Both the position numbers and the translations under genes were made by a program. From contig NC_018227.2 of assembly GCF_000304355.2 (NCBI RefSeq), positions 434,001-498,000 of the forward strand: a stretch of DNA of 64,000 nt, given 5' to 3'. The stretch's first letter is position 1. Each line of letters begins with the position of its first letter. This DNA is from Methanoculleus bourgensis MS2 (lineage in GTDB: Archaea > Halobacteriota > Methanomicrobia > Methanomicrobiales > Methanoculleaceae). The notes below the pieces were generated by a model. That model saw nothing but the letters and a program-made list of their open reading frames with translations, was not told where the DNA came from and did not search any database. Shown here piece after piece: positions 53,429 through 60,080 of the stretch.

Positions 53429-53914
53429 TCAGCCCCTGGCCGGCACCAGCCCCGCATCCCTGACAGCGAGGTCGGTCTCCCTGATGATCTCCCGGGTCAG
53501 GTTGATGCTTGAGGTTGTTCTGCTGACCGGGTCAACGCTGCTGGCCGTATCGCCGGGTTCGCCCCGGCCGGGGACGGTGAAGGCGTAGCCCTCCGGCGGG
53601 ACGACCTCGACGGTGTAGTTCCCCGGGAGGACGCCGCTGAAGATGTAGAGCCCCTCACAGGCATGGGAGAATGTCTCTGCCGTCGCAATCCTCTCCCCGG
53701 TGGCGCTCAGGAGGTGGACGGCGATGCCGCTCATGCCCCACTCGCCGGGGTCCTGCACGCCGTTGGCGTCGGCATCCAGAAAGACTGTTCCCCCGATGGT
53801 GCCGATGGACTTCTCTGCTCCCGGTCCCGGCGGGGCTTGGACTGCCGCGCTTGCGACCGAACCGAACACGAACGCTGATACGATGATGGCTGCAAGAATG
53901 CTGATCTCTCTCAA
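53429..53914 (-). CDS. Small secreted SdrD_B-domain protein
   Basis: The 161-aa protein has a signal peptide (ISILAAIIVSAFVFGSVASA) and one Cna-B/SdrD_B-like module: GGTVFLDADANGVQDPGEWG, then YIFSGVLPGNYTVEVVPPEGY and a final DLAVRDAGLVPARG. There is no propeller, stalk or membrane anchor. It lies between two large paralogues carrying the same module and looks like a minimal family member. A palindrome ATATTAATAT lies about 165 bp upstream (54078-54087), where the paralogues carry theirs. Confidence 0.82.
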   Translation of the reverse strand: MREISILAAIIVSAFVFGSVASAAVQAPPGPGAEKSIGTIGGTVFLDADANGVQDPGEWGMSGIAVHLLSATGERIATAETFSHACEGLYIFSGVLPGNYTVEVVPPEGYAFTVPGRGEPGDTASSVDPVSRTTSSINLTREIIRETDLAVRDAGLVPARG

Positions 53915-54077
53915 TCAGTTCACCTCACCTCCCGGATGCCTCATTGGGCCGTCCGGGTGCGTGAACCCCGCGGAGGGTGCAGTATCCGTCTGCGTTCCCC
54001 TCCGGCTGCCGAGCGGTCCGGGTTTTTCCTGTTCCGGCGCCGACTTTGGAGTTCCGACTCGGAATAGTCTTTATCAT

Positions 54078-56688: not shown

Positions 56689-56998
56689 AGGTCTACCTCT
56701 GAATCATCTCCACCCCGGCGTTCCCTGGTATCATCCCCGTCTTTCCGGGGATTATGGCGGTCGCCATGCAATACGGGTTTACTGGTTGATGGTCGGGTCT
56801 CCTGCAGAGCCCGGGGTATCAGGAGCACCGCGGGGTTTGCACTTCAATAGTACAACTATTATAATAATCTTATTTCCAAACGGGGGTATGAGGGTGGCCC
56901 GAACGTAGTCGATACCCGAGGGACCGGGTGCGCCAGGTGGCCACCCTCTCCCACAACTATCAATACGCTTATGAACAAACCCTGGATAGGAGACCTGC
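56689..56998. other. Divergent intergenic region, surface gene 3 and PfpI
   Basis: About 310 bp without a gene. It holds the promoter block at 56842-56871 and, nearer the surface gene, a CATCCCC...GGGGATTATGG hairpin (about 56730-56760) within the presumed leader. Confidence 0.45.
56842..56871 (-). promoter_or_regulatory. Palindromic AT-rich promoter block, surface gene 3
   Basis: It has a one-base-imperfect ATTATTATAATAGT palindrome in a 30-bp block that matches the block upstream of the 955-aa protein gene at 24 positions. It lies 154 bp upstream of ATG 56688. Confidence 0.55.
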
Positions 56999-58301: not shown

Positions 58302-59258
58302 GTGCTTGAGAAGACGGTCTTCGTGGAGGAAATTTGCGGGGGGATGCAGGTCGACGCACCTTTTGTGGTGGATGCTGCGGAGCTGCGGGAGAAGCGGGGC
58401 GGGAAGTACATCCAGCTTGCCATCTCCGACAGGACAGGGCAGGGTGTCTGTAAGGTCTGGGGGACGCCCGACCAGAACGCGGAGCAGATCGAGACGCTCT
58501 GCCGTGAAATCCGGGTCGGTGAAGCTTACCGAATCCAGGGCTACGCGAAGGTCTTCAACGGCACCTGTGAGGTCAACGTGAACGACGGGATCGCCAGCCT
58601 CGCAACCCCGGTGGCGGGGGATTCGATCGATCCTTCCCTGTTTGTCCATGCTCCCGCCGATGACGAGAGCGTCCGCCGGGGGCTTGGCCGCATGGCCGCG
58701 AAGATCGAAGACCCGGGGATCTATACCCTCGTATCCCGGGTTATGAACACCACGGAGGGGTTCTTTGAGGTGCCCGCTGCAAAACGCCGGCACCATGCAT
58801 ATATCGGCGGCCTTGCGGAGCATACCCTCGAGACCGCGGAGATTGCGCTCGGTCTTGCCGGCAGCGTCAACCGGGTGGAGATGGATACCGATGTGCTCCT
58901 CGCCGGAGCGCTCCTCCACGATATCGGCAAGGCGTCATGTTTCCGCCGCCAGGGTTTCTCATTTGTCGCGCTCCCGGAGTACACCCTCGTCGGGCATACG
59001 GCGCTCGGTGCGGCCGCACTCCTCCGGCACTCAGCCGGGGTCGATCCGTCGCGGTTCGCACACCTTCTCCATATTGTGATGGCGCACCACGGCCCCCACG
59101 GCGAGGTCAAGCCCCGGACCCCGGAAGCCTGGACGGTCCACTTCGCCGATAACGCCGGCGCATCCCTACGGAGCGTATGTGACGATGTCGCCGATCTCGC
59201 GCCGGGAGAGGAGCGCTACCAGGGGACACGGTGCAGGGAGCCGGTGTACCGGTTCTGA
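58302..59258 (+). CDS. OB-fold plus HD-domain phosphohydrolase (YhaM-like)
   Basis: The 318-aa protein joins an N-terminal OB-fold (residues 15-95: YIQLAISDRTGQGVCKVWG) to an HD domain (about 130-300). HD motifs are HHAYIGGLAEHTLE, LLAGALLHDIGKA and HIVMAHHGPHGE. This is the YhaM/CBF1 layout, a 3'-5' exoribonuclease acting on RNA or ssDNA. The start is GTG 58302. YhaM-type enzymes are best known from Firmicutes, so this archaeal version is notable. It precedes the structured element at 59261. Confidence 0.87.
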   Translation: MLEKTVFVEEICGGMQVDAPFVVDAAELREKRGGKYIQLAISDRTGQGVCKVWGTPDQNAEQIETLCREIRVGEAYRIQGYAKVFNGTCEVNVNDGIASLATPVAGDSIDPSLFVHAPADDESVRRGLGRMAAKIEDPGIYTLVSRVMNTTEGFFEVPAAKRRHHAYIGGLAEHTLETAEIALGLAGSVNRVEMDTDVLLAGALLHDIGKASCFRRQGFSFVALPEYTLVGHTALGAAALLRHSAGVDPSRFAHLLHIVMAHHGPHGEVKPRTPEAWTVHFADNAGASLRSVCDDVADLAPGEERYQGTRCREPVYRF

Positions 59259-59260
59259 AG

Positions 59261-59375
59261 GGTAGCGACGCGATTTCACGCGAATATCGCTTTGGGATAA
59301 CCTCCATCCCGTGAGGCGATTCCGCTGTTTCGGGGTTACGTTCTGACTGCACACTTTCCCGGAACGTCGCTACCC
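59261..59375. other. Structured intergenic element with four stems
   Basis: Outer arms GGGTAGCGACG (59261-59271) and CGTCGCTACCC (59365-59375) pair perfectly over 11 bp. Inside are CGATTTC/GAATATCG (59272-59278 with 59283-59290), GGGAT/ATCCC (59295-59299 with 59307-59311) and TTCGGG/CCCGGAA (59330-59335 with 59358-59364). The set forms a multibranch junction covering almost all of the element. It may be a small RNA, a leader of the toxin-antitoxin transcript or a small palindromic mobile repeat. Confidence 0.45.
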
Positions 59376-59411
59376 GATTGCCATATATCTATATGCAACG
59401 ATACTGAAATC

Positions 59412-59684
59412 ATGTCTGCGAACGTCAGATCCGATCATTCTCCCACACTCGATACGATCAGAATGGTCGAAGATTTCATCAAGGAGCACAGCGGCGAATA
59501 CCGCCGTCGTGCGCTGTGGGAGTGCTTGCCGCGGAAGGTCATGTATCAGACGTTCAAGAAGATCATCGAGTACCTCCTGGAGTCAAGCAAGATTGCTATT
59601 GATGCACGCGGTAGAGTCTGCTGGATCTACGATCCGGAGTTCACCCGGTGGTACCTGGCCCGCGAGGATCTGCGGATCAGATGA
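59412..59684 (+). CDS. Putative antitoxin, winged-helix-like
   Basis: The 90-aa protein is mostly helical and basic: IRMVEDFIKEHSGEYRRRALWECLP, cited in part, then MYQTFKKIIEYLLESSKIAID and RVCWIYDPEFTRWYL. The order of helix, helix, beta-hairpin is that of a small winged helix. It overlaps the next gene by four bases (ATGA). The pairing with a toxin-like protein suggests an antitoxin or transcriptional partner. TATA-like CCATATATCTATATG at 59381-59395 lies just upstream. Confidence 0.6.
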   Translation: MSANVRSDHSPTLDTIRMVEDFIKEHSGEYRRRALWECLPRKVMYQTFKKIIEYLLESSKIAIDARGRVCWIYDPEFTRWYLAREDLRIR

Positions 59685-60014
59685 AAGCAACAATCTTCTT
59701 TGCAGACACGCAGGTGAAAGAAGCCTTTGAGGCTTTGCGGGCCTCAACCCGCAGCGAAGATCGAGAACTGGTCGCCCTCCTGGAAAGAGCCTTCGTGGCG
59801 ATATCGGCCAACGCTTTTTGTGGCACTCAGGTTCCGAAGAGGCAGATCCCAAAGAACTATCTGCAACGACATCCCCCCGATAAAGAACCTCTGGAAGTAC
59901 AACCTCTCTCGCTCCTGGAGACTGATGTATACCGTGACCAGCGACGGCGGCACGATCGCGGTCGTCATCGAGTGGCTGGACCATACCGGCTATGATCGCC
60001 GGTTCGGGTACTGA
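59681..60014 (+). pseudogene. RelE-like toxin gene interrupted by a frameshift
   Basis: The first frame from ATG 59681 gives MKATIFFADTQVKEAFEAL, LVALLERAFVAISANAFCGT and KRQIPKNY. The second frame, ending at 60014, gives IKNLWKYNLSRSWRLMYTV, AVVIEWLDHTGYDRRFGY. Removing one C from CCCCCC at 59873-59878 joins them into one protein of about 110 aa. The joined product fits a RelE/ParE-like mRNA-interferase fold (NLWKYNL..WRLMYTV, then IEWLDHTGYDRRF). Unless it frameshifts during translation, the product is truncated at TGA 59993-59995 with a wrong C-terminal third. Sequencing error is possible. Confidence 0.65.
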
Positions 60015-60080
60015 GTGCTGTTTGAGTGTTTAGCCTTTCGCGGGGCAGGGATGACCTGCCTCCTGTTGTAAAAAAGGGGG

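Follow-up and report, generated by a model that had tools for sequence, protein, structure and literature searches.

Palindromic mobile repeats of the REP/MITE type, integron attC sites and the stem-loops of 3' untranslated regions (UTRs) that protect mRNAs are the described systems closest to the locus reported here. The first carry a terminal inverted repeat round an intergenic palindrome, attC sites are imperfect palindromes with the core motifs GTTRRRY and RYYYAAC, and the third place a stable stem in the way of 3'-5' exonucleases. In the window (the whole stretch of 64,000 nucleotides of Methanoculleus bourgensis MS2 that was analysed), a folded intergenic element separates a YhaM-like gene from a small two-gene unit of toxin-antitoxin layout (Table 1). 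An initial annotation had offered three candidates for it: a new small RNA, a cis-regulatory leader of the downstream operon, or a palindromic mobile repeat. Our own reading, which we consider probable, takes the element for an unconserved intergenic spacer, particular to the species, that lies at the left end of a toxin-antitoxin insertion.

Table 1. Coordinates of the element, of its neighbours and of a conserved block found in other genomes of the genus.
Feature	Position	Strand	Basis or remark
Structured spacer, outer 11-bp stem and three inner stems	59260..59375	+	Folding, repeat check
Left arm of outer stem	59260..59270	+	Leading GGG also follows the stop codon of relatives L037 and L064
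Right arm of outer stem	59365..59375	+	2-base overlap with the left limit (59374) of toxin-antitoxin DNA similarity
YhaM-like 3'-5' exoribonuclease (OB fold and HD domain)	58302..59258	+	Pfam, NCBIfam and PDB matches
Conserved TATA box / operator-like palindrome of the toxin-antitoxin pair	59378..59411	+	Present in 26 of the 30 upstream rows (own row counted)
Antitoxin-like 90-aa protein	59412..59684	+	Related proteins in 23 of 40 family-level genomes (own genome counted)
Toxin-like second gene, frame broken	59681..60014	+	Two ORFs in different frames, against an uninterrupted L103 relative
Segment missing from the closest congener examined (L036)	59265..60070		Similarity up to 59264 and again from 60071
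97-bp block	L040:1380-1476; loci L126-L142	- (L040)	Two TATA-like ends

Folding of the element against its background

The outer stem joins GGGTAGCGACG with CGTCGCTACCC in 11 of 11 pairs (100% complementary), and it begins one base ahead of position 59261, where the 11-bp perfect stem had been annotated as starting. Its pairing probability is at least 0.97 for 10 of the 11 pairs and 0.03 for the innermost one. The three further stems described within it were recovered in the minimum free energy (MFE) structure of the + strand; this structure accounts for just 3.7% of the ensemble, and the centroid pairs the middle inner stem differently, so that the interior of the element is uncertain. Nested pairing above chance, previously judged by eye, was borne out by RNA folding against dinucleotide-shuffled controls, with -46.8 kcal/mol on the + strand compared with -32.3 +/- 3.5 for the shuffles (z of -4.14, 0 of 200 as good). 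The - strand folded at -43.3 kcal/mol (z of -2.98, again 0 of 200 shuffles as good).

In the window, nine perfect inverted repeats reach 11 bp or more at a spacing of 60-150 nt, against a mean of 2.7 in 20 shuffles, and therefore the outer stem by itself is not special. When fold energies were regressed on composition across 12,778 scanned windows, coding DNA counted, 10 separate loci on the + strand and 7 on the - strand had z below -3.3, the element standing at -3.24. The 15 comparison loci then examined all overlap an ORF of at least 120 aa, those at 1641, 18671 and 19021 at the edge only. Among the 5,791 bases that a simple ORF rule left as noncoding (273 positions on both strands, 546 windows, element included), the element came narrowly first at -4.2, followed by the locus at 53896 (-3.75), with a tRNA window at -3.2; this ranking tilts toward the element because its boundaries had been optimised and the other windows lay on a 15-nt grid. 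The next strongest noncoding folds are those of 53896-54010 and 56716-56950. The fold of the element is thus real and above chance, though not extreme.

Neighbouring genes and the promoter-like palindrome

The stop codon of the YhaM-like gene, TGA at 59256-59258, ends one base short of the element. Besides its HD domain (Pfam HD, 3.2e-12), the product matched the NCBIfam YhaM model at 3.5e-20, under the family's curated cut-off, and YhaM in the PDB (9h3f, E of 3.8e-17); the gene is present in 31 of 35 genomes (own and 34 congeners). A reading that we hold to be unlikely takes the element for a young, species-specific structured 3' UTR of this gene, or for a small RNA derived from it, the stem of which would block 3'-5' exonucleases, possibly YhaM, and so stabilise the 3' end or set up a feedback loop. 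The position of the stem directly behind the stop codon, the resemblance of the upstream gene to a 3'-5' exoribonuclease and a fold with z of -4.1 on the coding strand and a weaker one on the other all speak for it. However, the same gene goes without the element in the 29 congener loci examined around it, where blastn gave no match at E <= 1, and the T runs of the element never exceed three (by eye), so that it has no T-rich tract of an archaeal intrinsic terminator. We regard as very unlikely the more specific proposal of a new species-specific multibranch RNA that would be released from the YhaM-like 3' UTR, would shield the mRNA from its own product and would have been formed as the toxin-antitoxin segment landed behind the gene.

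As initially annotated, the element stands ahead of a toxin-antitoxin-like pair. The toxin-like gene overlaps the antitoxin-like gene by ATGA, and its reading frame breaks close to six consecutive C (59873-59878), the L103 relative being uninterrupted; decay or a sequencing error would account for the out-of-frame gene. The antitoxin-like protein had no match in Pfam or NCBIfam. For the second, toxin-like part of the pair, Pfam gave ParE_like at E 0.13 with the sequence of the window and nothing significant with the L103 protein, NCBIfam a sub-cut-off match at E 0.0041 and the PDB no match, so that neither protein of the pair received a confident family name. The label "toxin-antitoxin-like" comes from the layout, that is, from the overlapping small genes, the scattered distribution and the operator-like palindrome.

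In that palindrome, which has the pattern TTGT-TATATAT-CATA-CAAC, the TATA box sits at roughly -24 to -35 relative to the ATG, and the four upstream rows in which the motif is missing (L116, L117, L123 and L124) are partial or distant matches. An archaeal TATA box at such a distance sets the transcription start at about the ATG. The embedded TATA palindrome suggests a leaderless, autoregulated toxin-antitoxin operon, the mRNA of which, from the position of the promoter, should start around 36 nt past the element. As this promoter-like motif comes between the element and the ATG, the element would be outside the toxin-antitoxin mRNA. In addition, the element was missing from the 29 loci retrieved with the antitoxin-like gene, where a single 13-nt match (E of 0.32) was found. 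A cis-regulatory leader of the downstream operon, proposed initially for an element that adjoins the pair on its upstream side and on the same strand, is contradicted by the conserved motif at leaderless distance and by the relatives of the pair that do without the element; we rejected it and find it scarcely credible.

Distribution of the element and limits of the lineage-specific segment

Conservation was judged across species, with one strain of the source species covered. Matches at E <= 1 were obtained in 28 of 35 genomes, all of them short fragments except the element's own copy, and the best in the 34 congeners reached E 0.0055. Seven loci with weak matches were inspected (five from the DNA search and two from the arm motif), and none carried the remainder of the element. 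At the level of the order, 1 of 199 genomes matched at E <= 0.001, which was its own, and 0 of the other 198. The small RNA candidate would, if conserved, have homologues with compensatory changes, and the 34 congeners and 198 order-level genomes yielded no homologue. The covariance-model search of Rfam returned no family at the gathering threshold, and the only match of a low-threshold run (E of 0.91) fell outside the element. Titles and opening lines of abstracts on the species, on toxin-antitoxin systems of the genus, on archaeal YhaM and on the type-strain genome included none about the element, and the terms "small RNA" and "toxin" do not occur in the main text of PMC5062929.

Comparison with the closest congener examined placed the borders of the missing segment as listed in Table 1, which indicates that the element and the two-gene unit share one lineage-specific segment. 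The bases right after the stop codon, AGGG, recur in two other relatives, and part of the left arm thus probably predates the insertion. On the other side, DNA similarity to toxin-antitoxin loci begins at 59374 or rightward and ends by 60018 in 26 of 26 aligned loci (27 given; L100 and L117 are cut by the contig start). The element occupies the space from the segment border to the point where the two-gene unit has its left limit. In the corresponding place of the toxin-antitoxin loci, 4 of 27 pre-promoter regions of 115 nt, unrelated in sequence to the element, fold at -46.8 or better.

In 17 of 35 genomes of the genus (E <= 1e-4, once in each), a 97-bp block is conserved in the same gap, between the YhaM-like and YHS genes; it is missing from the genome of the window, and in G009 (L051/L131) it has the opposite orientation with respect to the upstream gene. 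Almost no common structure was found by RNAalifold in 14 oriented sequences of the block (-0.7 kcal/mol on one strand and -5.9 on the other), which makes a role at the level of DNA, for example as promoters or as a protein-binding site, the likelier one. The block is a candidate divergent promoter or regulatory site that has escaped recognition, and it merits more attention than the folded spacer.

A search for further copies found one full element in the single-contig genome of 2,789,774 bases. The arm motif, with one mismatch at most, occurs at 79 places, compared with 83 for its reversed control, and is therefore not enriched; no exact direct duplication of 2-11 bp flanks the element. The palindromic mobile repeat suggested at the outset finds no support in these results, and a family of such repeats was rejected on copy number and arm motif. 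Exact patterns of 20-22 bases from the element had zero matches in viral and GTDB collections, where records of its own or close genomes may be missing, and an origin from phage or plasmid was rejected because searches of both gave chance fragments only. An attC site was also rejected, neither core motif being found on either strand of the element. Given these results, we consider it improbable that the element is what remains of a palindromic, non-autonomous mobile element bounded by 11-bp terminal inverted repeats, one that had perhaps arrived with the toxin-antitoxin segment, even if the terminal repeat is perfect and the element sits within a lineage-specific insertion.

Proposed origin of the element and comparison with known systems

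Under the favoured spacer reading, the toxin-antitoxin unit would have been inserted behind the YhaM-like gene and ahead of a YHS/copper-ATPase gene pair, with the element as the spacer at its left edge. The strong fold would then belong to a single sequence rather than to a maintained RNA family, and the element would probably have no dedicated function. If transcribed, it would be the read-through 3' UTR of the YhaM-like mRNA, where a long stem would at most slow decay in the 3'-to-5' direction, and it would exert no leader control over the toxin-antitoxin pair. Two points weigh against this reading, namely that the fold beats its shuffles and tops the noncoding windows, and that a young functional RNA would be compatible with the absence of relatives. 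The arrangement matches a spacer left by insertion; a function is possible, the fold being all that speaks for one. No functional element is demonstrated, while the fold itself is real.

The locus is a calibration case, in that a fold beating every shuffle can still be a private spacer, and the folding energy decided less than did the comparison of neighbours together with the flanking promoter. Detection of a transcript would make it an example of a structured RNA that emerged in a single species where an insertion has its border.

In comparison with known systems, the element differs from REP/MITE-type repeats in being single copy and showing no exact target-site duplication of 2-11 bp, and resembles them in its terminal inverted repeat round an intergenic palindrome. 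Although it lacks the attC cores, it has in common with attC sites the form of an imperfect palindrome of about 115 nt beside a small toxin-antitoxin-like unit. Finally, unlike the 3'-UTR stem-loops that guard mRNAs, the element is multibranch and unconserved, and it shares with them a stable stem directly past the stop codon.
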